A DNA stretch of 64,000 bases, from the NCBI GenBank assembly GCA_017853555.1, contig JAFMJH010000008.1, positions 1-64,000 of the forward strand, read 5' to 3'. Position 1 is the stretch's first letter, and every line of letters begins with the position of its first letter. This document shows positions 3,731-62,652 of the stretch, one piece after another. Source of the DNA: Steroidobacteraceae bacterium (GTDB taxonomy: Bacteria > Pseudomonadota > Gammaproteobacteria > Steroidobacterales > Steroidobacteraceae). A program made the position numbers and the translations under genes. The notes below the pieces were generated by a model. The model was not told where the DNA came from. It saw nothing but the letters and a program-made list of their open reading frames with translations, and made no database searches.

Positions 3731-3752
3731 GCGTGTCGCAAAGGAGTGCGTG

Positions 3753-4301: not shown

Positions 4302-4316
4302 GGCGATGTAGGCAGG

Positions 4317-4332
4317 CTGCCGGAGTCGGCAG
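4317..4332. terminator. Possible bidirectional terminator between ppa and tRNA-Asn
   Basis: CTGCCG and CGGCAG form a 6-bp stem with a four-base loop between the convergent ppa and tRNA-Asn genes. There is no clear T-tract on either side, so the terminator call is weak. Confidence 0.35.
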
Positions 4333-4336
4333 TATG

Positions 4337-4412
4337 TGGCTCCCCGGGTTGGACTCGAACCAACGACCTGCGGATTAACAGTCCGACGCTCTACCGACTG
4401 AGCTACCGGGGA
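4337..4412 (-). tRNA. tRNA-Asn (GTT)
   Basis: Read on the minus strand, this 76-base gene folds into a complete cloverleaf. The acceptor stem is TCCCCGG/CCGGGGA, the D-arm begins GCTC, the anticodon loop is CTGTTAA and the T-loop is TTCGAGT. The anticodon GTT decodes asparagine AAC/AAU. The 3' CCA is encoded. It lies between convergent ppa and the aminotransferase gene. Confidence 0.95.
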
Positions 4413-5709: not shown

Positions 5710-7824
5710 ATGAGCACTGCCGACGCCACGCCGTTCCGTCTCGAATCCGCCTACGCTCCGGCCGGTGACCAGCCGGCGGCGATCGCCGCCTTGGTCGATG
5801 GTCTGCAGCAGGGGCTGGCTCACCAGACGCTGCTCGGGGTGACCGGCAGCGGCAAGACCTACACCGTCGCCAACATCATCCAGACGGTGCAGCGTCCGAC
5901 GCTCGTGCTTGCGCACAACAAGACGCTGGCCGCGCAGCTGTACGGCGAGTTTCGCGAATTCTTTCCGCACAACGCCGTCGAATATTTCGTCTCTTACTAC
6001 GATTACTACCAGCCGGAGGCCTACGTTCCCTCCAGCGACACCTTCATCGAGAAGGATGCCTCCATCAACGAACACATCGAGCAGATGCGCCTCTCGGCCA
6101 CCAAAGCGCTGCTCGAACGCAAGGACGTGATCATCGTCGCCACCGTCTCGTCGATTTACGGTTTGGGCGATCCGCAGACGTATCTCGCGATGGTCTTGCA
6201 TCTCGTGCGTGGCGAGATCCTCGATCAGCGCAAACTGCTGCGGCGTCTGGCCGACATGCAATACACGCGCAACGAGATCGAACTCACCCAAGGCACGTAT
6301 CGCGTGCGGGGCGACGTCATCGACATCTTTCCGGCCGAAAGCGAGCGCGAAGCGGTGCGCCTCGAACTCTTCGACGAGACCATCGAGTCGATCGCGACCT
6401 TCGACCCCTTGACCGGCGAGATCCTGCGGCGCGTGCCGCGGTACACCGTGTATCCGGGTACGCACTTCGTCACGCCCAAGGAGCGGCTGATCGGCGCGAT
6501 CGACGGTATCCGCGAAGAACTGCGGGACCGGATCGCCGCGCTGCGCGCCGCGGACAAACTCGTCGAGGCGCAACGTCTCGAGCAGCGCACCCTGTTCGAC
6601 ATGGAGATGATGAAAGAGGTCGGCTATTGCGCGGGGATCGAAAATTATTCGCGCTATCTCTCGGGGCGCGAGCCCGGTGAGCCGCCACCGTGCCTCTACG
6701 ACTATCTGCCTGCGAACGCGCTGCTGATCGTCGACGAGAGCCACCAGACCTTGCCGCAGCTCGGCGCAATGTACAAAGGCGATCGGTCGCGCAAGGAGAC
6801 GCTGGTGGAGTACGGCTTTCGTCTGCCGTCCGCGCTCGACAACCGGCCGCTGCGCTTCGAGGAGTGGGAGCAACTCGCGCCGCAGATGATTTTCGTCTCC
6901 GCGACGCCCGGCGACTACGAGGCGCGCCACGCCTCGCAAGTGGTCGAGCAGGTCGTGCGTCCCACGGGCCTCGTCGATCCGGAAGTCGAAGTGCGTCCGG
7001 TGCGTACGCAAGTCGATGACGTGTTGTCTGAAATCAAGCTGTGCGTCGAGCGCAAGGAGCGGGTGCTCATCACCACGCTCACCAAGCGCATGTCCGAAGA
7101 TCTCACCGAATACCTCGACGAACACGGCGTGAAAGTGCGCTACCTGCACTCGGACATCGAGACGGTCGAACGCAGCGAAATCATCCGCGACCTGCGGCTC
7201 GGCGTGTTCGACGTGCTGGTCGGCATCAACCTTCTGCGCGAAGGTCTCGACATGCCGGAAGTCGCTCTGGTGGCGATTTTGGATGCCGACAAGGAAGGCT
7301 TCCTGCGCAGCGCCAATTCTTTGATTCAGACCATCGGTCGTGCGGCGCGCAATCTGCACGGACGCGCGATCCTGTATGCCGATCGCATCACCGGTTCGAT
7401 GCAGCGGGCGATGGAGGAAACGGCGCGACGACGCGCGAAGCAACTCGAGTTCAATCGCGAGCACGGCATCGTGCCGCGCGGCATCGTCAAAGCCGTCACC
7501 GACGTGATGGAAGGCGCGCGAGCCGAGGGACCTGCAACCTTGGCGGGTGCCCTGGCCGCCGCGCGCGGCAAAGGCGGGCGCGGTACGGCTGCACAGCGCA
7601 AGGCGGCGGCCGAAGGTCAGGCCGCTGCGCTACGCGCCGCAGGCGGCGGCGAGGCCGCCATCGCCATCGCGCCCGAACAGGCGCTGCGCCGCGTGAAGCA
7701 ACTGGAAGCGGAGATGTTCAAGCACGCGCGCAACCTCGAGTTCGAGGAAGCTGCACGCTTGCGTGATGAAATCGAACGTTTGAAGCGCGGCGCTTTCGGC
7801 TTGCCGCGTTCGAGGGCGGTATGA
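5710..7824 (+). CDS. uvrB: Excinuclease ABC subunit B
   Basis: UvrB is the damage-verifying helicase-like subunit of nucleotide excision repair, acting with UvrA and UvrC. The 704-residue product has Walker [13 protein letters not shown], the beta-hairpin region [16 protein letters not shown], the DESH box, SATPGDYE and a C-terminal UVR motif ([23 protein letters not shown]). An Ala/Gly-rich linker of about 60 residues before the UVR motif makes it longer than the E. coli protein (673). ATG 5710 is preferred to the ORF start at 5653 because conservation starts there. Confidence 0.97.
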
Positions 7825-10169
7825 GCATGCGGCGTCGCACGGTCGTCTTGGCGGGACTCGGTGCGGCCGGCGCGCTGTTGGTCGGCTGGGCGGTCGCGCC
7901 GGTCGGGCAACGGCAACGCGGTGGCAAGCCGCTGCGTACCGCGGAGGGCGAGCTTGCGCCCAATGCATGGCTCAAAATCGACCGCGACGATCGCGTCACC
8001 ATAATCGTGCCGCGCATCGAGATGGGTCAGGGCGCGCAAACGGGCCTTGCGATGTTGGTGGCCGAAGAACTCGACGCCGATTGGGCGCGCGTGCGCATCG
8101 AAGCCGCCCCCTTCGATCCGGTCTACAACAATCTCGCCGTCGTCTCCAACGGGTTGCCTTTTCAGCCGGATGATCGCAGTGCGTTGCCGCGCGCGGCGCG
8201 GCATCTTGCCGACAAAGCCGTGCGGCATGTCGGTGCGATGGTCACGGGCGGTTCGACCAGTCTCGAAGATCTATGGCTGCCGATGCGCGAGGCGGGCGCG
8301 TATGCGCGCGCGCTGTTGATCGCATTGGCGGCCGAACGCTGGCAGGTGCCGGTGGACGCATGCTCGGTCCGAGCGGGCGTCGTACAGCATCCGCAGCACG
8401 AGGGTCTGCGTTTCGGCGCGCTGGTCGATCGCTTGGGCGGACGCTCGCCCGAATCCGTCTTGCCGCGCGCGAGTTTCGACGTCGCGGCCGGACGGCTCAA
8501 AGATGCCGCGCAACGCGGGTTGCTCGGGCGCAGGCCGATGCGCCTCGATACGCCCTCGAAAGTCGATGGTAGCGCGGTGTTCGCTGCCGACGTGCACGAA
8601 CCGGGCATGGCGTACGCGGCGCTCGAGTTCGCGCCGCAGCGTGATGCCATCTTGCGCAGCGTCGATGCGAGTGGCGCCTTGTTGCTGCGCGATGTGGAGC
8701 GCGTGTTTTCGATTCCCGCGATCGGTGGCGCGGCAGCCGCGGTCGTGGTGATCGCACGCTCGCGTCATGCGGCGTGGCGGGCGCGGGCCGCGCTGCGCAT
8801 CGATTGGCAGCCCGGCGCAAGTGTCTCGCTCGATGACGGCGTGGTTGCGCAAACGCTCACGCGTGCACTGGCGGATCCGGACGAAGGTTATGCGTATCGC
8901 GACGACGGTGATGCGCTGCGCATCCTCGCCGATGCGTCGTCGCATGAGCGTACGCTCGAGGCCGAATACGAAGTACCGTATCTCGCGCACGCGGCAATGG
9001 AATCGCCGTGCTGCGCGATTCGTTTCGACGGCGATCGCGCCCGCGTGATCGCCGGCGTGCAGATTCCGGATCTATGCTGCAAGGCCGTGGCCACCGTGCT
9101 CGGCATCGCGCCCGAAGCCGTGCGTTTCGAGCAGGCCTATATCGGCGGCGCCTTCGGGCGTCGCCTCGAACACGACTTCGTGTTGCAGGCGGCTGCGATC
9201 GCGCGCGAAGTTCCGCAACGTCTCGTGCAACTGCAGTGGCGCCGCGAAGACGATCTGCGCCAGGATTTCTATCGCCCTGCGACGCGCGCGCGCTTGCGTG
9301 CGGCGCTCGATGCGCAAGGTCGCGTGATCGCATGGCATGGTCGATCGGTCGGTCAGTCCATCGTTGCGCAAGCGGCGCCGCGCGTGTTCGGCGTGCCCGT
9401 GGCGGGGCCCGACAAAACCACGGTCGAGGGCGCGTACGACATGCCCTATGAAATCGACGCCTTGCGCGTCGCGCACCGCAACGTCGAGTTGCCGGTACGG
9501 GTCGGTTTCTGGCGGTCGGTCGGACATTCGTTCCAGGGGTTCTTCGTCGAGACCTTCATGGACGAACTCGCCCAACGCGCCGGTATCGACCCGGTCGAGT
9601 TCCGCGCGCGCCACTTGGCCAAACACCCGAGGCAATTGGCCGTGCTGCGCAAAGTCGCCGCGGCGTCGTCCTGGGCAACGCCGCCCGCACCGGCGGCCGA
9701 TGGCGCTCGCATCGCGCGCGGCGTGGCGCTCGTGTGTTCGTTCGGCAGCGTCGTGGCACAGGTGGCCGAGGTGTCGCTCGACCGCGACGGGCGCCCTCGC
9801 GTGCACCGCGTCGTCGTGGCGATCGACTGCGGGACGCCGGTGCACCCCGGACTCATCGCGCAGCAGATGGAAGGCGCCGTTGCGTACGGGCTCTCGGCGG
9901 CGCTGCGGGGCGAGATCAGCTTTGCGGGCGGGGCCGTCCAGCAAGGCAATTTCGACGGTTATCCGGCCCTGCGGCTCGCCGAGGCGCCGGCAGTCGAAAC
10001 GCACATCATGCCGAGCGACGCGCCGCCGAGCGGGGTGGGGGAGCCGGGGTTGCCGCCCATTGCCCCGGCAGTGGCGAACGCGCTGGCCGTTTTGACGGGG
10101 CAAAGGGCGCGGAAGTTGCCGCTAGGCGGTGTCTCCGGTATCGTTCGCGGCCTTTCTGCAGGCGCGTAG
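7821..10169 (+). CDS. Xanthine dehydrogenase-family molybdenum hydroxylase, large subunit (IorB/aldehyde-oxidase-like)
   Basis: The 782-residue product resembles the molybdopterin subunit of isoquinoline 1-oxidoreductase-type enzymes. It opens with a twin-arginine-like signal ([21 protein letters not shown]), implying Tat export of the folded cofactor protein. Repeated [26 protein letters not shown] and C-terminal [18 protein letters not shown] (with the catalytic-glutamate motif) are typical. It overlaps the uvrB stop by four bases, and its own TAG stop lies inside tRNA-Val. No [2Fe-2S] small subunit or cytochrome partner is adjacent, so the electron acceptor is unknown. Substrate is not predictable. 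Confidence 0.85.
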
Positions 10170-10277: not shown

Positions 10278-10301
10278 CGATCAGGACGGAGCGAAGACGA
10301 C

Positions 10302-12230
10302 ATGCCGGTGATCACGCTGCCCGACGGCAGTCAAAGAACCTACCCGAACGCGGTGACCGTGGCCGAGGTTGCCGCGAGCATCGGTGCGGGGCTCGCCAAA
10401 GCGGCGCTCGCCGGCAAGGTCGGCGGCAAACTGGTCGACACGTCGTTTGCGATCGCGAGCGATGCCGCGCTCGAAATCGTCACCGAAAAGCATCCCGATG
10501 CCCTCGAGGTCATCCGTCACTCGACGGCGCACTTGCTCGCGCAAGCCGTGCAGGCCCTGTTCCCCGATGCGCAGGTGACCATCGGCCCGGTGATCGAAGA
10601 TGGTTTCTACTACGACTTCGCCTACAAGCGACCCTTCACGCCCGAAGATCTCGCCGCGATCGAAGCGAAGATGGCCGAGATCGTGCAAAGCAATCTCGCG
10701 GTGCTGCGCCGCGAGATGCCGCGCGACGAAGCGGTGAGCTTTTTCAAGAACCTCGGCGAGCACTACAAGGCCGAGATCATCGCCAGCATTCCCTCGAACG
10801 AGCCCATCAGCCTGTATGGCCAGGGCGAGTGGGTCGACTTGTGTCGCGGGCCGCATGTGCCGTCCACCGGCAAGCTCAAAGTATTCAAGCTCATGAAGGT
10901 GGCCGGCGCCTACTGGCGCGGCGATTCGCGCAACGAGATGTTGCAGCGCATCTACGGCACGGCCTGGGCGAACGAGAAAGATCTCAAAGATTATCTGCAT
11001 CGTCTCGAAGAGGCCGAAAAACGCGATCATCGTCGCATCGGTCGCGAACTCGATTTCTTCCACATGCAGGAAGAGGCGCCGGGCGCGGTGTTCTGGCACC
11101 CGAAGGGCTGGCAGGTGTTCCAATCGCTGATCGCCTACATGCGCGAGAAGCAGGCGGCGGCGGGCTTCCAGGAAGTGAACGGTCCCGAACTCATGGACCG
11201 CAGCCTCTGGGAGGCGTCGGGGCACTGGGAAAAATTCGGCGAGAACATGTTCACCACGACGACGCCGGACGAGCGCGTCTATGCGATCAAGCCGATGAAC
11301 TGCCCGGGGCACGTGCAGATCTTCAAACAGGGTCTGCGCAGCTATCGTGACCTGCCGCTGCGTTACGCAGAGTTCGGCAAGGTGCATCGCTACGAACCCT
11401 CAGGCGCGTTGCATGGCTTGATGCGCGTGCGCGCCTTCACGCAAGACGATGCGCACATCTTCGTGAGCCCCGAGCAGATCACCGCCGAGTCGGTGGCGGT
11501 CACGAAGTTGATCCTCGACATCTACCGCGACTTCGGCTTCGATGACCTGCGCATCAAGTTCTCCGACCGACCGCCCAAGCGGGTCGGCGCCGACGACATC
11601 TGGGACAAGGCCGAGGCGGCGCTCAAGGAAGCCGCACGCGAGGCGGGGATCGAGTTTTCGCTCAATCCGGGCGAGGGTGCGTTCTATGGCCCCAAACTCG
11701 AGTTCGTGCTGCGCGATGCCATCGGCCGAGATTGGCAGTGCGGCACTTTGCAGGTGGATCTGAACCTGCCGGGCCGCCTTGGCGCGCAATATGTCGACGA
11801 GCACAGCCAGAAGCAAACCCCGGTGATGCTGCACCGTGCGATCTTCGGCTCGCTCGAGCGCTTCCTCGGCATTCTGATCGAACATCACTCCGGGAAACTG
11901 CCGACTTGGCTCGCGCCGGTACAGGTGGTGCTCATGAACATCACCGATCGGCAGGACGAATACCTGCTCGAGACCGCTGAATTCCTTAAAAATCATGGGG
12001 TTCGGGTCGAAACCGACTTGCGCAACGAGAAAATTGGCTTTAAGATTCGCGAACATACGCTGCAACGCGTGCCATACCTATTGGTGGCGGGCGACAAGGA
12101 AGTAGCAGCGCAGCTTCTGTCCGTGCGTACCCGCAGCGGCAAGGATCTGGGCCAGATGTCTCCGCAGACTTTCGTCGAGCGGCTGCGCGTCGAGCTCGAT
12201 AGCCGTGGGCGCCGAACTTTGGAGGATTGA
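10302..12230 (+). CDS. thrS: Threonyl-tRNA synthetase
   Basis: This class II synthetase charges tRNA-Thr. The 642-residue product matches E. coli ThrRS (642). It has an N-terminal TGS domain ([14 protein letters not shown]), an editing domain with [11 protein letters not shown], the catalytic core ([23 protein letters not shown]) and a C-terminal anticodon-binding domain. It begins the conserved thrS-infC-rpmI-rplT-pheST block. The end of the gene contains GGAGG, which serves as the ribosome-binding site of infC. Confidence 0.97.
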
Positions 12231-31711: not shown

Positions 31712-32098
31712 ATGTCGGGCATGAAAATCTTCGAAATCTCCGGCGCCGCGCTGGTCGCGCAATCGGTGCGGCTCAATACCGTGGCCTCCAATCTCGCCAA
31801 TGCCGATTCCGTCGGCGCGAGCCGCGAGGCGGTGTTCAAGGCGAAGCATCCGGTATTCGTCGCGGATGGTGATTCGGTGCGCGTGGACGGAGTCGTCGAG
31901 TCGTCGCGGCCGCCGCTCGCGCGCTACGAACCCGGCCACCCGTCGGCGGATGCAGCCGGATACGTCTATACGCCGGACATCGATCCGGTCGAACAGATGG
32001 TGGACATGATCTCGGCCTCGCGCTCCTACCAAAGCAACCTCGAGGTGATGAACGCATCCAAAGAGATGTTGCTGTCGACGTTGAGAGTCGGGCAATGA
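31712..32098 (+). CDS. flgC: Flagellar proximal rod protein FlgC
   Basis: The 128-residue rod subunit has the N-terminal motif FEISGAALVAQSVRLNTVASNLANADS and the C-terminal helix DMISASRSYQSNLEVMNASKEMLLSTL shared by axial proteins. It assembles with FlgB and FliE at the rod base. It follows flgB by ten bases and overlaps flgD by four. Confidence 0.95.
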   Translation: MSGMKIFEISGAALVAQSVRLNTVASNLANADSVGASREAVFKAKHPVFVADGDSVRVDGVVESSRPPLARYEPGHPSADAAGYVYTPDIDPVEQMVDMISASRSYQSNLEVMNASKEMLLSTLRVGQ

Positions 32099-32745
32099 AC
32101 GAGGTGAGCGCGATCGGCGCCGGCAGCACGGCGAAGTCGGCCAAAGAGCTTCAGCAGCTCGGTCAGGACCAGTTCATGAAGCTGATGCTCACGCAACTGA
32201 AGAACCAGGATCCGCTCAAGCCGCTCGAGTCGACGGAATTTTTGAGTCAGCTCGCGCAGTTCTCGACCGTCACGGGCATTCAGGATGTCAAAGGTGCCGT
32301 AACCGACATGGTCGGCAGCTTGCGTGCCAGTCAGGCATTGCAAGGGGCCGGACTGATCGGTCGCAGCGTCGTGGCCGTCGCCGATCACGCGAATTTCGAT
32401 GGCGTGACGTCGGTCGAGGGCAGCATCGACGTGCCGGAAGGTGCGAGCGCCGTCGAACTCACCGTGCGCGACACCGCCGGTGCGATCGTACGGCGACTGC
32501 CGCTGCGTATCGACGGCAGTTCGGCGGCGTTTGCCTGGGACGGACGCAGCGAGCCCGGCACGGCCGCCGCGCGCGGGCCATACGCACTCGAAGCGGTAGC
32601 GCAGGTCGGCGGTCGCGCCGAATCGGTGCCCGTACAAGTCCAAAGTCGGGTGGCGAGCGTATCGCTCGACCCGACGAGCGGCGCGATCGCGCTCGAAACC
32701 GATCACGGCACTTTGGCGTTCGCCGCCGTACGGCGCGTCAAATAA
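32095..32745 (+). CDS. flgD: Flagellar hook cap protein FlgD
   Basis: The 216-residue scaffold caps the growing hook. The N-terminal secretion part contains LGQDQFMKLMLTQLKNQDPLKPLESTEFLSQLAQFSTVTGIQ, the FlgD hallmark, followed by a Tudor/FnIII-like C-terminal region. It overlaps flgC and lies 19 bases before flgE. Confidence 0.96.
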   Translation: MNEVSAIGAGSTAKSAKELQQLGQDQFMKLMLTQLKNQDPLKPLESTEFLSQLAQFSTVTGIQDVKGAVTDMVGSLRASQALQGAGLIGRSVVAVADHANFDGVTSVEGSIDVPEGASAVELTVRDTAGAIVRRLPLRIDGSSAAFAWDGRSEPGTAAARGPYALEAVAQVGGRAESVPVQVQSRVASVSLDPTSGAIALETDHGTLAFAAVRRVK

Positions 32746-32764: not shown

Positions 32765-33982
32765 ATGACGTTCAGAGTGGCGATCTCGGGTTTGAATTCG
32801 GCGCAAACCGATCTTTCGGTCACCGCCAACAACATCGCGAACAGTTCGACGACCGGCTTCAAAGAGTCGCGCGCACAGTTCTCCGAGTTGTTTTCGGTCT
32901 CATCGGTCGGCGTCAGCTCGCTCGCCACCGGCAACGGCGTACGCGTCACCGACATCGCGCAGCAGTTCACGCAAGGCAACATCGACTTCACCAACAACAG
33001 CCTCGATCTGGCCGTGAGCGGCAACGGGTTCTTCGTGTTGAGCGACAACGGGGCAACCGCGTATTCGCGCGCCGGCGCGTTTCGCGTCGATCGTTCGGGT
33101 TACGTGGTCAATGCGGCCAGTCAGCGACTGCAGGTGTTTCCGCCGAACCCGCAAGGCGGCTTCAACACGGGCGCACTCACGGACTTGCGGCTGACGAGCG
33201 GCGAAAGTCCGCCGTCCGCCACGGGCGGGGTGAGGGTCGTGGCCAATCTGCCGGGCAATGCCCAGCCGCCGTCGCTCGGCACGTTCGATCCGAACGATCC
33301 GGATTCCTACAACCATTCGACGGCGATGACTGTCTACGATTCGCTCGGTTCGCCGCATACAGCCACGTTCTACTTCACCAAAAAATCGCAATCCAACGAG
33401 TGGGAGCAGCGCATGTACGTCGATGGCAATGCCGTCGGGACGCCGCAGGCGCTGCAATACTCGTCATCCGGCACGCTCGAGCAGCCTGCCAACGGCAGCG
33501 TAGAGTTTCCGCAGTACGACCCGGGCAATGGCGCGGCGCCGCTGACGATCAAGGTTGACGTCGGAGCGACGACGCAATACGGCAGCTCGTTCAGCGTCTC
33601 GGCCATCACGCAGGACGGCTACACCACCGGTCGCCTGATCGGCATCGACACCGAATCGAGCGGCGTGGTGCAGGCCCGTTTCACCAACGGGCGCTCCATC
33701 GCGCTCGGCATGGTCGCGCTCGCTCAGTTCGCGAATCCCAACGGCTTGCAGCAACTCGGCGACACGAGTTGGGCCGAAACGTTTTCATCGGGCCAGGCCT
33801 TGCGCGGCGCGGCAGGATCCGCCGGACTCGGGCTCATCCAATCCGGTGCGCTCGAGGCCTCGAACGTCGACGTGACCGCACAGTTGGTCGGCATGATCAC
33901 CGCGCAGCGCAACTTCCAGGCGAACGCCAAGATGATCTCGACGGCCGACGCGATCACCCAAAGCATCATCAATATTCGCTGA
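32765..33982 (+). CDS. flgE: Flagellar hook protein FlgE
   Basis: The 405-residue hook subunit begins [39 protein letters not shown] and ends [39 protein letters not shown], the two parts that form the D0 coiled coil. Central domains have the expected length. GGGAG lies upstream. Its final size in the cell should depend on the unusually short FliK encoded later in the cluster. Confidence 0.96.
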
Positions 33983-37314: not shown

Positions 37315-38098
37315 GATCGGGTCGGTCTCCCAGTACACCGATGTCGCCGCGCTCGGCGCCTTGCGCGCCGGCGCGAAACACACCGAGCCGCAGACGATGC
37401 GCGAGGTCGCGCGCCAATTCGAGGGCATCTTCGTGCGCATGATGCTGCAGAGCATGCGCGATGCGAGTCCCGGTGATCCGTTGTTCGGCTCGAGTCAAAG
37501 CGACATGTATCGCGATATGTACGACGGGCAGTTGTCGCTGCAATTGACGCAGGGCAAGGGCATCGGGCTCGCAGATCTTTTGATGCGGCAGTTGCAGGCG
37601 CAGCCGGCAGCGCCGGCGCCGAGCGCCGCGGTCGATGCCGCGCCGCCGTCGCGCGCGGCCTTCGTCGACTTCCTGCGCCCGGCCGCCGAACGGGCGGCGC
37701 GCGAACTAGGCGTGTCGGCGCGCACGATCATCGCGCACGCCGCGCTCGAAACGGGCTGGGGTCGTTCTTTGCCGACGGATTCCGCCGGCCGCAGCTCGCA
37801 AAACTTCTTCGGCATCAAAGCGATCGGCAGCGCGCAGCCCGGTGTGCCGGCGAAGACGACCGAATACGAGCAGGGCCGGGCGGTGCAACGTACCGAACGG
37901 TTTCGAAGTTATGCAAGCGTCGAGGCGGGCATCGCCGATTATGTGCGGCTACTCGGCCTTCCACGGTATTCCGCAGCTCGCGGCGTCGGCGACGACCCGG
38001 CCGCGTTCGGCGCGGCTTTGCAACGGGCGGGCTATGCGACCGACCCCGATTACGCACGCAAGCTCGCCGCGGTCGCCCGCCACATCGGTGACGCATGA
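37292..38098 (+). CDS. flgJ: Rod-assembly muramidase FlgJ
   Basis: The 268-residue protein has two domains. The N-terminal rod-cap part contains [23 protein letters not shown] and [15 protein letters not shown]. The C-terminal glucosaminidase part contains [18 protein letters not shown], with the catalytic glutamate, and FFGIKA. It opens the peptidoglycan for the rod. The GTG start at 37292 overlaps flgI; flgK overlaps its end by four bases. Confidence 0.94.
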
Positions 38099-39672
38099 GC
38101 GGCATGCTCTCCACGGGGCTCAACGGCCTGCGCGCGTTTCAACTCGCCATCGACGTGACATCGCAGAACGTGGTCAATGCGAACACGGATGGCTACGTAC
38201 GCCAGCGCGCGGAACTTGCGACTCGGCCCGCAGTGCCGAGTGCCGGCGCGTGGCTCGCATCGGGCGTGCAAGTCGCGCGTATCGCCCGCGAAGTCGATGT
38301 CTATCGGGTTGCGCAGTCGCGCGATGCGGCGACGCAGGCGCAGAACGCCGCGACACGCATGCAGGAAATCGGTCGCGTGGTCGCGGCACTCGGCCGCGGT
38401 CAGGACGGACTGCCCGGCGCGTTGCAACGGGTACGTGATGCACTCGAGGCCCTGACGGCCGCGCCCGCCACGCGCAGCGTGCGCGTCGAGTTGCTTGCCA
38501 AGCTGGACGACGCGGCGACGGAAATTCGGGCCGTCGACGCACGCTGGCGCGACTTCGATCGTGAATGGGGTCAGCGCATGACGACGCTGGTCGGCGAATT
38601 GAACGCCGATGCGCGTGCGATCGCGGATCTCAATCGCCAGATCGCCATCGGCGCCGCGGCCGCGGGCACACCGTCGCCCACGCTGCTCGATCAACGCGAT
38701 CAGTTGCTCGATCGTTTGGCGGGCTATGCCGACTTGCGGGTGGTCGAAGATGCGGAGGGCAAGGTCAACGTATTTGCAGGCCGGGGACGAGCGCTCGTAG
38801 TCGGCGATGTGGCCACGGCCGTCAAGGCGGAGGATTTTGCTGCGGACTCGGGCGGCACGCTCGGCGCGCTGGCGTCTAGCCGCGCGCCGCTCCTGAGCGG
38901 CGCACGCGATGAGCTCGGCGCACTCGCGGCGGCGCTGGCGGAACGCCTTAACACGACGCATGCCGAGGGCGTCGATGGTGCGGGCCGCAGCGGCACGCCG
39001 CTCTTCAGCACGCCGGTAGCGACCGTCACCCCACGCTCGGGCAACACGGGTTCGGCTACCGTCGTGGCCACGCTCGACGACACCGATGCTCTCACCATCA
39101 AAAATTATCGTCTGCAACGCGTGGCCGATGCCTGGGTGCTATCGCGCCTCGATGACGGCACGCCGGTGCCGATGTCGGGAAGCGGCAGCGTGATCGACCC
39201 GCTGCGTGCCGAAGGGCTTGCGATCGCGGTGTCGGGCGTCGCCGCCAATGGCGACGGGTTCGAAATTTACCCGACGCGCGAGTTGGCCTGCGACTTCACG
39301 GCGACCGTCACCGACCCGACGCGCGTTGCCGCTGCCGCCTCGGGACTCGGACCAGGCGACAACGGCAATGCACGCCGACTGTTGCTCGCCTTCGATTCGG
39401 TTGCGCCGAGCGATGCCGGGACGACGCTCATCGATCGCCTCGACCACTTGCAACTGCGCCTCTCGCGCACGCAGCAGATCGCCGCGCGCGACGCGGAAGT
39501 GACGCAAGTTGCGCGTGCGGACATCGACCGGCAGCGCAGCAACGTCTCCGGCGTGAATCTGGACGAGGAGGCTGCGCGCTTGTTGCAGCTGCAGCAGGCT
39601 TACCAGGCCGCGGCGCAAGTCGTGCGAATGTCGGACGAGTTGTTCCGCACCTTGCTCGACGCCACGCATTGA
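38095..39672 (+). CDS. flgK: Hook-filament junction protein FlgK
   Basis: The 525-residue HAP1 protein begins [41 protein letters not shown] and ends with NLDEEAARLLQLQQAYQAAAQVVRMSDELFRTLLDA. It links hook and filament and is a FlgN client. It has no promoter of its own in the four-base overlap with flgJ, so it is read from the flgB operon or an internal promoter. Confidence 0.95.
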   Translation: MSGMLSTGLNGLRAFQLAIDVTSQNVVNANTDGYVRQRAELATRPAVPSAGAWLASGVQVARIAREVDVYRVAQSRDAATQAQNAATRMQEIGRVVAALGRGQDGLPGALQRVRDALEALTAAPATRSVRVELLAKLDDAATEIRAVDARWRDFDREWGQRMTTLVGELNADARAIADLNRQIAIGAAAAGTPSPTLLDQRDQLLDRLAGYADLRVVEDAEGKVNVFAGRGRALVVGDVATAVKAEDFAADSGGTLGALASSRAPLLSGARDELGALAAALAERLNTTHAEGVDGAGRSGTPLFSTPVATVTPRSGNTGSATVVATLDDTDALTIKNYRLQRVADAWVLSRLDDGTPVPMSGSGSVIDPLRAEGLAIAVSGVAANGDGFEIYPTRELACDFTATVTDPTRVAAAASGLGPGDNGNARRLLLAFDSVAPSDAGTTLIDRLDHLQLRLSRTQQIAARDAEVTQVARADIDRQRSNVSGVNLDEEAARLLQLQQAYQAAAQVVRMSDELFRTLLDATH

Positions 39673-40713: not shown

Positions 40714-42129
40714 ATGAGTCAAGTGATCAATACCAACGTGATGTCGCTGACGGCGCAGCGCAATCTCGCCACCTCAGGGCGGGACATGGCCACCGCGCTG
40801 CAGCGTCTCTCGTCCGGCTTGCGCATCAACAGCGCCAAAGACGACGCGGCAGGCCTTGCGATCTCGCAACGCCTGAGCGCGCAAGTGCGCGGTTTGAACC
40901 AGGCGACCCGCAACGCCAGTGATGCGATTTCGCTGTCGCAGACGGCCGAAGGCGCACTCGATGCCATCAGCCAGAACCTGCAGCGCATGCGCGAGTTGTC
41001 GGTGCAGTCCGCCAACTCGACCAACAGCGCCTCCGACCGCGCGGCGCTGCAGCTCGAAGTCAAGCAACTGAAGGCGGAAATCGATCGCGTCGCCGCGCAG
41101 ACCCAATTCAACGGCATCAATTTGCTGGACGGCAGTTTCATGAACCGCGCCTTCCAGGTCGGTGCCGATGCCAACCAGACGATCGTCATCGACGCCATCG
41201 ACAGCGCGCGCACCAGCGCGCTCGGTCAGTTCCGCGGCGTCGTGTTGACGGCGCAGTCGATCGGTACCGCCGACGATACGGCGGACGATCAGAGCGTCAC
41301 GGTCGACGGTGTCGAATACGACCTCGGCTCGATCGCCAACGACGCGAAGGCACTCGCCGCAGCGATCAACGCCAAAGGTCCGCCGGGCATGCTGGCGAGT
41401 GCCAATGCGACCGTCGTCGACAGCGTCACGGCGTCGACCAACGCCTCGGCCGACGGTGACGCGACGATCACGATCAATGGTGTCGATATCACGGTTGCCG
41501 GCTTGCACGGCAACGCGTCGAGCAATCGTGCCGCAGCGGTCGCCGCGATCAATGGTCAATCCGCCGCCACCGGCGTGTCGGCCACCGACGACGGCAGTGG
41601 CGTCAAATTGACCGCCGCCGACGGGCGCAACATCACGCTTGCATTCGACGAGGGAGATTTCACGGACGGCACGCTCGAGGACTTCGGCATCGACGAAGAT
41701 GGCACTTATGGCGGGACCTTGACCGTCAGCTACGCCGCACCGGAAGGCGTCAACGGCACGGTGTCCTGGAGCGGCGCGTTCGAGCCCTCGGATTCGACCA
41801 TCGCAGTCTCCGGCATGGCGGTGGCCGACGTGGATGTCTCGAGTTCGACTGGCGCAAACTCGGCGCTGGTGTCGATCGATGCGGCGCTCGGCGCGGTCAA
41901 CAACTCGCGCGCCAAGCTTGGTGCGATTCAGAACCGCTTCGAGTCAACGATCTCCAACTTGCGCACCACCGCCGAAAATGTCGCGGCGTCGCGCTCGCGC
42001 ATCCAGGACGCGGACTTTGCCGCGGAAACGGCCATGTTGACCCGCGCGCAGATTCTGCAGCAGGCCGGCATCGCCATCCTTTCGCAGGCGAATGCGGCAC
42101 CGCAGAGCGTATTGACCTTGTTGCGTTGA
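40714..42129 (+). CDS. fliC: Flagellin FliC
   Basis: The 471-residue flagellin has a conserved N-terminal D0/D1 region (SQVINTNVMSLTAQRNLATSGRDMATALQRLSSGLRINSAKDDAAGLAISQR) and C-terminal half (RAKLGAIQNRFESTISNLRTTAENVAASRSRIQDADFAAETAMLTRAQILQQAG). The variable middle holds two flagellin-IN-like repeats (QSVTVDGVEYDL and ATITINGVDITV). ATG 40714 follows GAGGAG; the ORF start at 40657 is not conserved. Only one flagellin gene is present. Expression should depend on FliA. Confidence 0.97.
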   Translation: MSQVINTNVMSLTAQRNLATSGRDMATALQRLSSGLRINSAKDDAAGLAISQRLSAQVRGLNQATRNASDAISLSQTAEGALDAISQNLQRMRELSVQSANSTNSASDRAALQLEVKQLKAEIDRVAAQTQFNGINLLDGSFMNRAFQVGADANQTIVIDAIDSARTSALGQFRGVVLTAQSIGTADDTADDQSVTVDGVEYDLGSIANDAKALAAAINAKGPPGMLASANATVVDSVTASTNASADGDATITINGVDITVAGLHGNASSNRAAAVAAINGQSAATGVSATDDGSGVKLTAADGRNITLAFDEGDFTDGTLEDFGIDEDGTYGGTLTVSYAAPEGVNGTVSWSGAFEPSDSTIAVSGMAVADVDVSSSTGANSALVSIDAALGAVNNSRAKLGAIQNRFESTISNLRTTAENVAASRSRIQDADFAAETAMLTRAQILQQAGIAILSQANAAPQSVLTLLR

Positions 42130-42570: not shown

Positions 42571-43890
42571 ATGCCCGGCTTGCAATCCTCGGGCATCGGC
42601 TCCGGGCTCGACGTCAACGGCCTGGTCAGCCAACTCGTGGCGGCGGAGCGTGCGCCCGTCGAGCAACGAATCGCACGCGCGAAAAACGGTGTCGACACGA
42701 AACTGTCGGCATTTGCGACCTTGCGCGGTGCCGTCGCGGCGCTGTCGACGGCGACGCAGGCGCTGTCGACGGTCAGCGATGCCAATGTGGCGAGCAGTGA
42801 AGATCCCGATGTCGTCGTGGCGAGCGCGAGCACTACGGCCGTTGCCGCGACCCACAGCGTCGAGGTCAAACGAATCGCCAGCGCCCACAAGTTGCGCTCT
42901 TCGCCCTTCGGCGACGGCGCCCAAACGGTACTTGGCGCAGGTCGTTTGACCCTCACCCAGAATGGTCGCAGCTTCAGCGTCGAGCTCGACGCGCAAGGGG
43001 ATCTCGGCGCACTGCGCGCTGCGATCAATGCAGCGCGCGACAATACCGGCGTCCGCGCCGCATTGTTGAATACCTCGACGGGCGTGCGCCTCGTTCTCGA
43101 AGCGAGCAGCGTGGGATCGGCGGGTGAAATCGCGTTGCGTGTCGATCATGCAAACGGTGCGCTCGTCGACCTTCCGGCGTCGATGCAAAGCGTCGCGGCG
43201 GCGACGGATGCCGACGTTTGGATCGATGGTTGCGCGGTGAACGCCGTCGGCAACCGGATCCGCGATGCGATCGAGGGCGTCACCGTGGACGTATTGACGG
43301 CGAAACCCGACACGCCGCTGCGCATCGAGGTCAAAAGCGACGTCGCAGTCAAGCAGGCGCGTCTCGGTCAATTCATCGACGCCTACAACAACCTCGCCGC
43401 GACTCTGCAACGTCTGCGCGCCTACGATCCGGATACGCGCGAGGGCGGGCCGCTCATCGGCGATGCCACCTTGCGCAATCTCGAAGGCGCGTTGCGCCGC
43501 GTCGTCGCCACGCCTTTCAAAGCGGATGCGCTGCAGTCGGCCGCCGGGCTGCTCGGGCTCGAGATGCGCGTCGATGGCAGCCTGCGAGCGCGCAGCGCGG
43601 CAAGCGGCACCGCGGACCCTGCACGCTGGCCGACTGCGGTGCGCTCGGAGCGCGGTATCGCGACGCTCGTCGAGGGCGTACTGCGCGACTTCATCGCCAG
43701 CGACGGCGCATTCGCCCAGCGTACCGATGCATTGCAGGCGCGCAAGCGCGCCCTGGTCACGCAGGCCGCTGCACTCGATACGCGCATGAGCGCGGTCGAG
43801 CAGCGCTACCGCGCACAATTCACTGCGCTCGATTCGATGCTCAGCAACATGCAGACCACCTCGAGCTATCTCGCCAAACAGCTCAAGTAA
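42571..43890 (+). CDS. fliD: Flagellar filament cap protein FliD
   Basis: The 439-residue cap protein begins MPGLQSSGIGSGLDVNGLVSQLVAAERAPVEQRIARAK, the FliD_N signature, and ends with a coiled coil LDSMLSNMQTTSSYLAKQLK. ATG 42571 is four bases after the flaG stop; the ORF start at 42484 lies inside flaG. It caps the filament and folds incoming flagellin. Confidence 0.94.
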   Translation: MPGLQSSGIGSGLDVNGLVSQLVAAERAPVEQRIARAKNGVDTKLSAFATLRGAVAALSTATQALSTVSDANVASSEDPDVVVASASTTAVAATHSVEVKRIASAHKLRSSPFGDGAQTVLGAGRLTLTQNGRSFSVELDAQGDLGALRAAINAARDNTGVRAALLNTSTGVRLVLEASSVGSAGEIALRVDHANGALVDLPASMQSVAAATDADVWIDGCAVNAVGNRIRDAIEGVTVDVLTAKPDTPLRIEVKSDVAVKQARLGQFIDAYNNLAATLQRLRAYDPDTREGGPLIGDATLRNLEGALRRVVATPFKADALQSAAGLLGLEMRVDGSLRARSAASGTADPARWPTAVRSERGIATLVEGVLRDFIASDGAFAQRTDALQARKRALVTQAAALDTRMSAVEQRYRAQFTALDSMLSNMQTTSSYLAKQLK

Positions 43891-50516: not shown

Positions 50517-50966
50517 GTGAGTGCGGACCGCGCGCTTGCCGCATGGCAGTCGGACCGGATGCAGCGCGAGCAGCGCGTCGCCGCGGAACTGCGCGTCGCG
50601 GCGCAACGGCTCGCCGAGGCGGAGGCTAGATTGAAAGAGCTACGCGATTACCGCGGCGAATATCACGCGGCGTTCACGCAGCGCGCCGGGCGCGGATTGG
50701 ACGGCGTCGCGGCGCGCGACTTCCGCGTATTTCTGCACAAGCTCGACGAGGCCATCGCCCTGCAAACCCAACGCCTCGCCACGCTGCAGGGCGAACGCGA
50801 GCGGGTATTCGAGGCCTGGCGTGACAGTGCACGGGAGCTGCGTATCATCGAGCGCCTGCGCACACGCCGGGCGGTCCGCGCCGCGCGCGCCCTCGAGCGC
50901 CGAGATCAACGCGCGCTCGATGATCGGCCACATTGCTCGCCGATACCGGCGCTCGTCGATGAGTGA
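50517..50966 (+). CDS. fliJ: Flagellar export chaperone FliJ
   Basis: The 149-residue protein is almost wholly an antiparallel coiled coil (QRVAAELRVAAQRLAEAEARLKELRDYRGEY). FliJ couples FliI to FlhA. GTG 50517 is one base after the fliI stop with GGAG nine bases upstream; the ORF start at 50499 would overlap fliI. It overlaps the fliK-like gene by eight bases. Confidence 0.87.
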   Translation: MSADRALAAWQSDRMQREQRVAAELRVAAQRLAEAEARLKELRDYRGEYHAAFTQRAGRGLDGVAARDFRVFLHKLDEAIALQTQRLATLQGERERVFEAWRDSARELRIIERLRTRRAVRAARALERRDQRALDDRPHCSPIPALVDE

Positions 50967-51444
50967 CCTGCATCGCCTCGCGGAGCGCGTCGGTTTCGCT
51001 CGAGGGCGCACGCTCGGCCACGAGCAGAGCAGCGCGCCGTCCGAGCCGGCGGCGAATTTCGCGACCAATTTGACGCCATCAATGATCTCGCTGTCGGCGA
51101 GCGATCATTCGGTCGCGCAAACGGTGCAACGCTGCTTGCGCGACGAAATACTGACGAACGTCAGATCGCTCATGGCTGGCGACGACAGCGCCGTCATAAA
51201 TTTGGCGCTCGCCGATGCGCCGTCGCTGCAGATCACCGTGCAACTGGCCGGCGCCGCCGTGTCGATCGTCGTCACCGGCGCCGGCGCCGAGACCCGCGGA
51301 TTGCTGCACGCCATGTTGCCGTCGCTGCGTAAATCTCTGGCCGCACAGGGATTGTGTCTTTCGTCTTTGGTTTCAGGTCAAGGCGAAGAAGCCGCGCGCG
51401 GCGAACGTTCCGTCGGCAAGCGCGAGCTCGATACCTACGCCTAA
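50959..51444 (+). CDS. fliK: Minimal FliK-like hook-length control protein
   Basis: The 161-residue product occupies the fliK position between fliJ and fliL. Its C-terminal 90 residues resemble the FliK substrate-switch core (VINLALADAPSLQITVQLAGAAVSIVVTGAGAETRGLLHAMLPSLRKSLAAQGLCLSSLVSG). Only about 65 residues precede it, whereas FliK is usually 350 residues or more because its N-terminus is the hook ruler. ATG 50959 overlaps fliJ; the ORF start at 50821 lies inside fliJ. No frameshift is evident that would restore a longer frame. Confidence 0.72.
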   Translation: MSDLHRLAERVGFARGRTLGHEQSSAPSEPAANFATNLTPSMISLSASDHSVAQTVQRCLRDEILTNVRSLMAGDDSAVINLALADAPSLQITVQLAGAAVSIVVTGAGAETRGLLHAMLPSLRKSLAAQGLCLSSLVSGQGEEAARGERSVGKRELDTYA

Positions 51445-51529: not shown

Positions 51530-52027
51530 ATGGCGGACAGCGAAGTCAAAAAAGACGCACCGACCGAAGAGTCGAGCGCAGCGCCCTCGGGTCGTCGCAG
51601 GTTGTTGCTCGGCGGTGCCGCGCTCGCGTTGACCGGCATCGGCGGCGGCGCGGGATATTGGTTCTGGTGGCGCACACCGGCGCAGCCTGAGCCCGAACCG
51701 ATTCCTCCGCTGCAGTTCCTGACCCTCGAGCCACCGTTCGTGACGAATCTTGCGGGCGCGGACGCGCAGCGTCTGCTGCAGGTCGAGGTCAGCGTCGTCA
51801 CGCGTTCGCCGCACACGCTCGCGATTCTCAAGGATCACCAACCGATGCTGCGCGACGGTTTGCTGATGCTGTTCGCCTCGCAGGAGGTCGGCGCAGTGAG
51901 CCTGACCGCCGGCAAAGAAGCGCTGCGTCGTGCCGCACTCTCGACGGTGCGGCAGGTCGTGAAGCAAGTGGAGGGCGATCCCGTCACGGTGCTCAATGTG
52001 TTGTTCAACGGCTTCGTGGTGCAGTGA
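51530..52027 (+). CDS. fliL: Flagellar basal body-associated protein FliL
   Basis: The 165-residue inner-membrane protein has one N-terminal membrane helix (RRRLLLGGAALALTGIGGGAGYWFWW) and a periplasmic stator-associated domain (FLTLEPPFVTNLAGADAQRLLQVEVSV). ATG 51530 has GGAGAGG upstream and fits the sigma-54 start; the earlier in-frame ATG 51512 has a poor ribosome-binding site. It heads the fliLMNOPQR-flhBA block. Confidence 0.92.
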   Translation: MADSEVKKDAPTEESSAAPSGRRRLLLGGAALALTGIGGGAGYWFWWRTPAQPEPEPIPPLQFLTLEPPFVTNLAGADAQRLLQVEVSVVTRSPHTLAILKDHQPMLRDGLLMLFASQEVGAVSLTAGKEALRRAALSTVRQVVKQVEGDPVTVLNVLFNGFVVQ

Positions 52028-54700: not shown

Positions 54701-55471
54701 ATGCTCGAAGTGACTCAGGCACAGCTTTGGCAGTGGATCGGCGCTGCGCTATGGCCGTTCGCGCGTATCGCGGCGTGCCTGATGATCGCGCCGACCATCG
54801 GCGCGCAGTTCGTACCGCGCCGAATACGCCTCGTGCTTGCCGCGGCGCTCGCCATCCTGGTCGCGCCACGACTCGTGATGCCGAGCGCGATCGATCCGCT
54901 CTCGGGTCTCGGCATCAAGATTCTGCTGGTGCAAATCGCGGTCGGGCTCGCGATCGGCTTCCTGATGCAACTGGTGTTCGATGCGGTCGGTCTCGCCGGG
55001 CAATTGTTGGCGAACGGAATGGGCCTGTCGTTCGCGTTCAATATCGATCCGCAACGCGGGGCTTCGACGGCGGCGGTCGGCCAGTTCTACATCGTGTTCG
55101 TGACGTTGACGTTTTTGGCGCTGGACGGCCATCTCGCGCTGCTCAAAACGTTGCTCGCGACGTTCGACGCCATTCCGGTCGCGACGCACTCCCTGTCGGC
55201 GAGATTCTTTCTGGACATCGCGGCGAGCGGCGGCACTCTGTTCGAGGGCGCCCTGCGGATCGCGCTGCCCGGGCTTGCAGCCCTCGTGATCGCCAATCTC
55301 GCCTTCGGCGTCGTCAGTCGCGCAGCGCCGTCCTTGAACATCCTGTCGGTCGGATTGCCCGCGGCCTTGCTGTTCGGCTTGTCGGTCCTGGTGTGGTCGC
55401 TCCCGGGTGTGCAATTCGGCTTCGAGCATTTGTTCGACGCGGCGCTGCAGCGCATCGGTGCATTGCGATGA
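54701..55471 (+). CDS. fliR: Flagellar export gate protein FliR
   Basis: The 256-residue integral membrane protein contains FARIAACLMIAPTIGAQFVPRRIRLVLAAALAILVAPRL and the conserved VGLAIGFLMQLVFDAVGLAGQLLANGMGLSFAFNIDPQ. It completes the FliPQR export gate. It overlaps flhB by four bases, as in many clusters. Confidence 0.96.
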   Translation: MLEVTQAQLWQWIGAALWPFARIAACLMIAPTIGAQFVPRRIRLVLAAALAILVAPRLVMPSAIDPLSGLGIKILLVQIAVGLAIGFLMQLVFDAVGLAGQLLANGMGLSFAFNIDPQRGASTAAVGQFYIVFVTLTFLALDGHLALLKTLLATFDAIPVATHSLSARFFLDIAASGGTLFEGALRIALPGLAALVIANLAFGVVSRAAPSLNILSVGLPAALLFGLSVLVWSLPGVQFGFEHLFDAALQRIGALR

Positions 55472-56586
55472 GCGGCGAGAGCGCGAGCGATCGCAGCCTC
55501 GAACCGACGGCCAAGCGACTCGACGACGCCCGCGAGCGGGGGCAGGTGCCGCGCTCGGCGGATTTGACCACCGCGGTGGTGATGGTGGTGTCGGTGCTGA
55601 TGCTTTGGTTGCTCGGGCCGTACGTGATGGGCGGGTTCATCGACGGCATGCGCGGCGGTCTCGAAATCGGCGCGACAACCTGGCGTAACCCGGACGCGAT
55701 GTCCTTCGCGCTCGCGGAGGTCGGGGCGCGTACCGTGCGCGGTCTGCTGCCGTGGTTTGCCGCCTGCTTGCTCGGCGCGATGGCTGCACCGACGCTGATC
55801 GGCGGATGGAATTTCTCTTTGCGCGCGCTGCAGTTCGACCCGGCGCGCCTCGATCCGCTCGCAGGTCTTGCGCGCATGGGCTCCGCCCGTGCCTGGATCG
55901 AACTTGGCAAGAGTCTGTTGAAGTTCGCCTTCGTGGCCGGTTGCGCCGTGCTTGTGCTGTACCGCGAGAGCACGGCGCTCGAGTCGCTCGCGCGCTACGC
56001 GATTCCTTCCGCGGGCGCTGCGGCCTGCGCGCTCATCGGCGAGGCCATGGTGCTGATGGCGGCGGCGCTAGGCGCGATCGCGCTCATCGATGCGCCGTGG
56101 CAGTTGTGGAGGCATCGGCGTGAATTGCGCATGACGCAGGAAGAAGTTCGCGAGGAATACCGCGAGTCCGAAGGCTCGCCCGAGACCAAATCCCGGTTGC
56201 GCGAGGTGCAACGCTCGATCGCCCGCGGCCGCATGCTCGAGGACGTCCCCAAAGCGACGGTCGTCATCACGAATCCTACGCACTATGCGGTGGCGTTGCG
56301 TTATCGCGCGGGCGAAGACGCCGCGCCGCTCGTGCTCGCCAAAGGCGCGGGTCATCTCGCCGCGTCGATCCGCGAGCTCGCGGGGCGACACGGGGTCGAG
56401 CTCGTCTCCGTCCCGCCGTTGGCACGCGTGTTGTATCGCAAGGTCGAGGTCGGCGCGACCATTCCGCCGCGTCTCTACGCCGCGGTGGCGCAGGTGCTGA
56501 CCTACGTCTGGCACGTCGAACTCATAAGGCGTCGCGGCGGCGTCCAACCATCTTTGCCGCAGATCGATCCGAGGATCGAGTCGTGA
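55468..56586 (+). CDS. flhB: Flagellar export switch protein FlhB
   Basis: The 372-residue membrane protein begins with the cytosolic leader DRSLEPTAKRLDDARERGQVPRSADLTTA and carries the autocleavage site NPTH near residue 269 (ATVVITNPTHYAVALRY). Cleavage lets export switch from hook to filament proteins, a step normally triggered by FliK. ATG 55468 overlaps fliR; the long ORF from 54727 lies in fliR. It overlaps flhA by four bases. Confidence 0.96.
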   Translation: MSGESASDRSLEPTAKRLDDARERGQVPRSADLTTAVVMVVSVLMLWLLGPYVMGGFIDGMRGGLEIGATTWRNPDAMSFALAEVGARTVRGLLPWFAACLLGAMAAPTLIGGWNFSLRALQFDPARLDPLAGLARMGSARAWIELGKSLLKFAFVAGCAVLVLYRESTALESLARYAIPSAGAAACALIGEAMVLMAAALGAIALIDAPWQLWRHRRELRMTQEEVREEYRESEGSPETKSRLREVQRSIARGRMLEDVPKATVVITNPTHYAVALRYRAGEDAAPLVLAKGAGHLAASIRELAGRHGVELVSVPPLARVLYRKVEVGATIPPRLYAAVAQVLTYVWHVELIRRRGGVQPSLPQIDPRIES

Positions 56587-61709: not shown

Positions 61710-62377
61710 ACCCGACCGGCCGCGTGGGACGCGAGCGCTGGGCGATCCCGTTCGCGGATCTTTTGCTGTTGTTGCTCGCGGTGTTTGCCGTGTTGTATGC
61801 CGCATCGAGCGTCGATTCGGTCAAATATCGTGCGACGGCGAGGGCGCTTGCCCTGGCCTTCGACGGCTCCCGGACATCGTCCGCAGATCCGCGCCCGCAA
61901 CAATTGTCGAAGTTGGCCGCGGACCTCGAACGCGTGCTCGCGCCACTGTCGGCAGCGGGTCTCGTGTCGGTCCGTCGCATCGATCTCGGGCTCGAAGTGG
62001 AGATCAGCAACGATCTGATGTTCGACAGTGGTCGAGCCGAACTCGAACCTTCCGCACGGGCCGCGCTCGAAGCGCTCGCCGTACCGCTCGGCGCGATCGA
62101 CGGATTCATTCGCGTCGAGGGTCACACCGACGACGTGCCGATCGCCGTCACCCGCTATCCGAGCAATTGGGAATTGTCTGCGGCGCGCGCTTCCGCCGTC
62201 GTGCGCACTTTGACGGAGCGAGGCGTACGCCCTGAACGCCTCACCGTCGTCGCTCATGCGCAATACAAACCTCTGCAATCCAACGCCACCCCGGCGGGGC
62301 GCGATGCCAATCGGCGCGTGCTGCTCACGATCCGCCCGTTCTGCAACACCTCGGAGGAGACATGCTCGAAATATTGA
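61706..62377 (+). CDS. motB: Flagellar stator protein MotB (MotD-like)
   Basis: The 223-residue protein has a short N-terminus, one helix RWAIPFADLLLLLLAVFAVLYAASS with the proton-carrying aspartate (about residue 18), and an OmpA-like peptidoglycan-binding domain (GRAELEPSARAAL and VEGHTDDVPI). GTG 61706 overlaps the motA stop. It overlaps the next gene by 16 bases. Confidence 0.94.
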   Translation: MNPTGRVGRERWAIPFADLLLLLLAVFAVLYAASSVDSVKYRATARALALAFDGSRTSSADPRPQQLSKLAADLERVLAPLSAAGLVSVRRIDLGLEVEISNDLMFDSGRAELEPSARAALEALAVPLGAIDGFIRVEGHTDDVPIAVTRYPSNWELSAARASAVVRTLTERGVRPERLTVVAHAQYKPLQSNATPAGRDANRRVLLTIRPFCNTSEETCSKY

Positions 62378-62652
62378 ACGAACCGTCGGTACGTACCTTC
62401 GCGCCGTTCGCGCTCGCGGCACTCGGAGCGGTGGTCGGCGTCGCGTCCGTGCGCATCGTCGCATGGCTACGCCGACCGCGACCCTTTGATGCCGCACCAG
62501 CCTCGCGCGTCACGGCGCGCGACGACGACCTGCCGGCCAAGCTCGCGCGCAGCGGCGCAGACCGCGCGCAGCTGATGATGCAATGCGGGCTCGACGCCGA
62601 CGAAGCGGCACTCGTCCTGCGGCTGCATGGATCCGGGCCCACGCGCGACTGA
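62362..62652 (+). CDS. Small membrane-anchored protein, possibly DUF2802
   Basis: The 96-residue protein has one N-terminal membrane helix (FAPFALAALGAVVGVASVRIVAWL), a disordered linker and a compact C-terminus (KLARSGADRAQLMMQCGLDADEAALVLRLHG). The latter resembles the DUF2802 tail found in Pseudomonas flagellar/chemotaxis loci after motD, parA and cheW. GGAGGA lies directly upstream. Function is unknown; coupling to motB suggests a stator or polar role. Confidence 0.65.
   Translation: MLEILNEPSVRTFAPFALAALGAVVGVASVRIVAWLRRPRPFDAAPASRVTARDDDLPAKLARSGADRAQLMMQCGLDADEAALVLRLHGSGPTRD

Follow-up and report, generated by a model that had tools for sequence, protein, structure and literature searches.

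Hook length control is the textbook case of a molecular ruler. In Salmonella, secretion switches when rod and hook together reach ~80 nm; the driver of the switch, either length itself or the slowness with which FliK passes the export gate, is under active study (PMC13344023). Salmonella FliK has 267 residues before its switch core and 53 after it (PMC6972891). For FliKs of 363 residues and more, hook control is tight, with a scaling of 0.2 nm per residue, and engineered Salmonella FliKs of 310 and 335 residues leave hooks partly uncontrolled while switching is retained (PMC6126814); length control is separable from switching (PMC2427183; PMC6126814). The P296L substitution of Salmonella FliK was selected as letting the protein flip the switch without a rod or hook to measure, its earlier switching was attributed to slower FliK secretion, and P296S and P296T are suppressors of a Salmonella fliK mutant (PMC13344023). 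Among the open-licence papers searched, none describes a flagellar FliK that naturally lacks its ruler.

We analysed a window of 64,000 nucleotides from a Steroidobacteraceae bacterium (genome G000), in which a complete flagellar set, here system A, surrounds a short gene at the place of fliK:

50517..50966, + strand: fliJ, the upstream neighbour (GTG start assumed; position and similarity to the fliJ of relatives)
50959..51444, + strand: fliK of system A, 161 aa, ruler-less (PF02120, core match to 2RRL, position between fliJ and fliL)
51530..52027, + strand: fliL, the downstream neighbour (position and matches among relatives)

The earlier note had described a 161-residue FliK between fliJ and fliL, and frame, position and profile all bore this out. 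The frame runs on the + strand from an ATG at 50959 to a stop ending at 51444, its start overlapping the end of fliJ at 50966. A Pfam profile search matched PF02120 (FliK) to residues 76-144 at 38.9 bits (E 7.9e-10), above the Pfam cut-off of 29.8 bits; PF02120 was the sole Pfam family matched by the protein, and the NCBIfam FliK models gave no match to it. A longer FliK from an upstream in-frame start was rejected, as it would reach 207 aa at most, would begin inside fliJ and is impossible in a relative, G019. There, the stop-to-stop frame of the system-A fliK comprises only 168 codons, which rules out a mis-called start as the cause of the shortness. The G019 protein is likewise 161 aa long and ~35-37% identical to that of the window, and since this separate assembly has its own 161-aa gene, an assembly artefact is unlikely.

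Within the short protein, four features were located:

51058..51072, + strand: candidate FxxxPhi gate-recognition (export) motif FATNL, residues 34-38 (position shared with system-A FliKs)
51103..51384, + strand: switch (T3S4) core, residues 49-142 (AlphaFold2 fold; PDB match 2RRL)
51208..51210, + strand: Leu84 (CTC), where Salmonella FliK has Pro296 (alignment through 2RRL numbering)
51427..51441, + strand: C-terminal five residues LDTYA, like VDIFA of E. coli (sequence comparison)

An AlphaFold2 model, built from three sequences only, folded residues 49-142 with 10-residue block means of ~65-89 and left both ends disordered, the whole-protein mean being 61.5. The best PDB match of the predicted core was 2RRL (E 6.4e-6), the solved C-terminal domain of Salmonella FliK, followed by the switch domain of PscP. 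A PDB search with the whole short FliK returned no match, and 2RRL was reached via a long relative, that of G009. Salmonella numbering was taken as the 2RRL chain residue plus 201, so that the proline of PEELG is residue 296; we derived this offset from the reported 204-370 construct. It is consistent with V302, I304 and L335 of the FliK literature. Aligned with Salmonella FliK, the window core starts at residue 56, so that 55 residues precede it and 21 follow; the count of about 65 residues before the core in the earlier note was too high. The same note had credited the protein with only the C-terminal core. The core is present, but the protein has also kept a candidate export motif near its N-terminus and the switch end at its C-terminus, so that three parts remain, while the ruler domain and the linker that would span rod and hook are absent.

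FxxxPhi is the gate-recognition motif of early export substrates (PMC10965912), and each of the ten system-A FliKs compared has exactly one such motif within its first 90 residues. It begins at residue 34 in the window protein, 37 in G019 and 35 in G006, the third genome with a short FliK, and lies at 33-37 in seven of the ten. In shuffles of the pre-core segments, a motif fell at 33-37 in 2-3% per protein, giving a joint value of 2.8e-5 for a range that was picked after the data had been seen. Substantial export of FlgD needed ~30 residues between its two export signals (PMC8983047), and the spacing of FxxxPhi from the N-terminus also agrees with this work. At the other end, the last five residues of FliK have been proposed to act on FlhB (PMC13344023). 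They read LDTYA in the window protein, LDDYA in G019 and VDIFA in E. coli, DxYA being common to the first two. The G006 FliK keeps core and export motif and has lost the C-terminal DxxA end, finishing in GASSR.

Alignment of the window and G019 FliKs exceeded shuffled sequences at z 17.9 overall (5.9 for the first 60 residues, 14.6 for the remainder), and over 155 codons their genes show 77 differences at first, 71 at second and 96 at third positions. With third positions the most diverged and the alignment far above shuffles, the pattern fits selection on the short FliK protein. Together, descent, position and switch domain indicate that the window protein is a FliK, although it lacks the ruler after which the family is named.

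We estimated how far this protein could reach. Salmonella FliK works at 80 nm over 267 pre-core residues, or 0.30 nm per residue; the 55 residues of the short FliK would then reach ~16 nm, rising to 19 nm at full stretch, which, presuming an ordinary rod length, does not even match the rod itself (80 minus 55 nm). Independently, the engineered Salmonella FliKs that lose part of the control, at 310 and 335 aa, are already about double its size (PMC6126814). The short FliK can therefore be no usual hook ruler and, judged by its length, is too short for hook measurement. The earlier view that measurement by the usual ruler seems impossible is thus supported.

We compared 24 genomes of the genus. 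A system-A FlhA was full or nearly full in ten of them (72-100% identical to that of the window) and a fragment in G021; other FlhA copies were ~50-56% identical to the window's. The FliKs encoded between fliJ and fliL of system A measured 612 (G014), 506 (G007), 506 (G020), 457 (G009), 431 (G010), 356 (G017), 345 (G011), 175 (G006), 161 (G019) and 161 aa (G000). The gene of G006 is recorded as follows:

L066 (G006:C10), ~7478-8005, - strand: fliK of G006, 175 aa

Seven export and motor proteins yielded a tree that joined G000 with G019 and placed G006 with G009 and G010, each with support of 1.0. As G000 and G019 stand apart from G006, which is sister to species with FliKs of 431-457 aa, FliK shortening, on this tree, is an event that happened at least twice independently. 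Short forms of system-A FliK occurred in three of the six genomes with both this and a second flagellar system and in none of the four with system A alone. Across the family (150 genomes, a sample that lacks G019), short frames clear of contig ends were confirmed in G000 and G006 only, and the order survey likewise confirmed no further one. The short FliK as a common form was rejected, the frames of G179, G200, G144, G363 and G402 being cut by contig ends; a 136-codon fliK frame in G544 is outside the confirmed short set. The phylum survey covered the stronger matches. Two side observations concern other genomes: at L162 (G309:C1 3027500-3032500), on a single-contig chromosome, fliK is apparently split by a frameshift into frames of 483 and 250 codons, and at L069 (G011:C53 42000-58300), positions 10288-10431, no fliM lies between fliL and fliN in the system-A cluster.

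Proline occupies the place of Salmonella Pro296 in 81 of 83 distinct FliKs, the FlhX-linked proteins described below being left out. Both exceptions, the window protein (Leu) and that of G006 (Thr), are among the three short FliKs, and none is among the 80 others; the chance of this is 3/3403 (~0.0009), to be taken as a guide only, since the sequences are related. The PxxLG motif that begins at Pro296 is replaced by LADAP in the window protein and is damaged in all three short FliKs, with G019 retaining the proline. PxxLG is conserved but is not known to serve curators as a criterion for the FliK family. Given that G019 kept its proline, that the rest of the motif is also damaged, and that Leu, Ser and Thr are each one base from Pro, relaxed constraint could likewise account for the Pro296/PxxLG pattern.

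The remainder of system A appeared whole. Besides the genes already named, the cluster comprises flgN, flgM, flgA, flgB-L, fliC, flaG, fliD, fliS, a sigma-54 activator, fliE to fliR, flhB, flhA, flhF, a FleN-like ATPase, fliA and motAB; names without a Pfam hit or matches among relatives are our own reading of the sequence. The hook, late-substrate and flhB genes are:

32095..32745, + strand: flgD, hook cap, normal (Pfam FlgD domains)
32765..33982, + strand: flgE, hook protein, 405 aa, normal (Pfam FlgE domains)
38095..39672, + strand: flgK, late substrate, intact (Pfam)
40714..42129, + strand: fliC, late substrate, intact (Pfam flagellin N and C)
42571..43890, + strand: fliD, late substrate, intact (Pfam FliD N and C)
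55468..56586, + strand: flhB of system A, NPTH site present, the expected partner (alignment to solved FlhB; PF01312)

FlgE and FlhB, with its NPTH site, had been called normal in the earlier note, and domain searches and alignment agree; FlgD is normal too. The intact fliC, fliD and flgK suggest that the switch is still made. Among the assignable genes of the window's flagellar cluster, we saw no substitute ruler gene. An FlhB altered to bypass FliK was rejected, as the positions of Salmonella bypass substitutions show nothing bypass-like that is special to the species with a short FliK. For that comparison, the 6S3L chain, whose row in the FlhB alignment is labelled 'Sal', was taken by us to be Vibrio, and the 36hu alignment, the source of the Salmonella FlhB letters, was assumed to be Salmonella. 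An altered export pore was rejected as well: FliQ keeps G32 and T48, and FliP and FliR are ordinary, with positions 210-221 of FliR and 195 of FliP compared by eye only. A 96-residue gene at 62362-62652 of the window, after motAB, gave a sub-threshold match to DUF2802 (32.3 bits; cut-off 33.5).

The genome as a whole (2.48 Mb in 74 contigs, 93.8% complete) carries two flagellar systems, A in the window and B elsewhere, with two FlhA genes, three FlhB-type genes and three genes that are clearly of FliK type. For system B, contig C26 holds fliE to flhB and C43 holds flhA, and its FliK, of 587 aa, occupies the usual place between the system's own fliI and fliM. A second long FliK, which the earlier note had named as a possible refutation, is thus present but belongs to the separate system-B cluster, and for that reason does not by itself explain the short FliK. 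FlhB of system B is ~36% identical to that of system A. In the named genome collection, FlhB relatives of the latter stand at about 37-42% identity, the closest being mostly Burkholderiales at about 40-42%; with system B so strongly different, the two flagella differ in history. The third FliK-like protein, of 391 aa on C25, adjoins a gene for an FlhB C-domain (FlhX type) and lies near genes that we read as flgM and flgN. Such a FliK-like gene beside a small FlhB C-domain gene was seen at L003 (G000:C25, ~3025-4400), L146 and L148-L156, so that it recurs in G000 and, among relatives, at ten loci or more. The FlhX-linked proteins are without the PxxLG motif of canonical FliKs, which is why the FlhX-type gene and its FliK-like neighbour look like a separate switch pair.

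Homology, shortness, retained parts, two independent shortenings and a second system are read here directly from sequence; as to how the short FliK is exported, binds FlhB, switches and is timed kinetically, and how long the hooks are, we infer the following. A true system-A fliK would have lost ruler and linker in evolution and retained both ends, its N-terminal export segment becoming joined almost directly to the switch core, with the C-terminal end acting on FlhB. The short protein would dock at FlhB, be exported during rod and hook assembly and flip secretion from hook to filament substrates, at a moment set by the slowness and frequency of its own gate passage and not by hook length. System-A hooks would consequently be unmeasured, either very short or broadly spread, and perhaps tolerated because system B keeps its full ruler. 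We hold this account, of a ruler-less FliK that is exported and whose own secretion times the switch, to be the most likely one and give it an even chance. In its favour are the homology and fold of the protein, the signs of selection on it, the independent short FliK of G006, the kept FxxxPhi and DxYA ends, the intact late-substrate genes, the separability of length control from switching, and the loss of Pro296 in two of the three short proteins, seen beside the behaviour of P296L, P296S and P296T in Salmonella. Several observations weigh against it: G019 retains Pro296 and G006 is without the C-terminal motif, so that no single pattern covers all three proteins; their PxxLG damage is shared; no compensating change was seen in FlhB or in the pore; and in Salmonella, linker deletion led to weaker FlhB binding and polyhooks (PMC6972891). 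The broader statement is more tentative, and we would put it somewhat short of even: some flagella may have hooks without any ruler, an exported ruler-less FliK switching via its own slowed gate passage, an arrangement that would have arisen at least twice, each time beside a ruler-controlled second flagellum, with the loss of Pro296 in two of the three proteins paralleling P296L/T.

Alternatively, system A might be a spare flagellum and its fliK an eroding remnant, with polyhooks formed or system A not built at all. The confinement of short FliKs to genomes that also carry system B would suit such decay, as would the fast divergence of FliK, FliL and FliO between G000 and G019 and the damage to PxxLG in each short protein. 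We nevertheless consider it unlikely, if worth keeping in view, as three genomes have an intact fliK frame, two of these short proteins keep both functional ends, the rest of system A is intact down to its late substrates, and removal of only the middle, twice over, is unexpected from random decay.

Measurement in trans is a further reading, in which the 587-aa FliK of system B or the 391-aa FlhX-linked protein would be exported via system A and measure its hook, the short FliK only helping to switch. Both proteins are encoded in the genome, and short FliKs occur only where system B exists; however, the two FlhBs share only ~36% identity, the FlhX-linked paralogue has no PxxLG, and several dual-system species keep a long system-A FliK, which together make this reading rather improbable.

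We regard it as very doubtful that the short FliK senses the rod alone, switching soon after rod completion to give hooks that are very short yet set. Its reach of 16-19 nm is of the order of a rod (80 minus 55 nm), and Salmonella FliK secretion slows at rod completion (PMC13344023), but that reach is still shorter than the rod of Salmonella, and the sequence offers nothing that speaks directly to the idea. Finally, a longer fliK hidden by frameshift, misassembly or a wrong start is close to excluded, for even in a draft assembly of 74 contigs, and with a frameshifted fliK seen in G309, there is no room between the end of fliJ at 50966 and the start of fliL at 51530, and the separate assemblies of G019 and G006 have the same arrangement.

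Compared with known systems, the window FliK shares with those of Salmonella and E. coli the position between fliJ and fliL, the fold of the switch core, an N-terminal FxxxPhi and a C-terminal DxxA end. It differs in length (161 aa against 405 in Salmonella and 375 in E. coli), in its 55 pre-core residues against 267 in Salmonella, without ruler or linker, and in carrying Leu where Salmonella has Pro296. Salmonella FliK310, FliK335, linker deletions and P296L/S/T combine switching with poor or no length control (PMC6126814; PMC6972891; PMC13344023), much as proposed for the window FliK. Unlike these engineered proteins, the latter is natural, is about half the size of the shortest member of the engineered series, which spans 310-785 aa, and is matched by an equally long homologue in a second species.

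Outside flagella, the closest parallel is provided by the HpaC/HpaP T3S4 proteins, small switch proteins that act on an FlhB homologue and have been proposed to work without length control (PMC2427183). HpaC, of 212 aa, is reported not to be secreted and serves an Hrp system, whereas the window FliK has an export-type motif and matches the FliK profile, and its gene sits in a flagellar operon within a flagellar cluster, not in an Hrp type III gene set. The FlhX-linked proteins (that of C25 in G000 and ten relatives) resemble the window FliK in core similarity and in missing PxxLG; they are frames of ~390-500 codons beside an FlhB C-domain gene, whereas the window fliK is short, lies between fliJ and fliL and has no such gene adjacent, the FlhX-linked copy being the separate C25 gene. 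Having lost the ruler but not the ends, in two independent lineages, these natural FliKs would offer a ready test of the minimum that FliK needs for switching. They would also provide a switch module reduced to 161-175 aa and a counterpart in nature to the laboratory mutants P296L/S/T.
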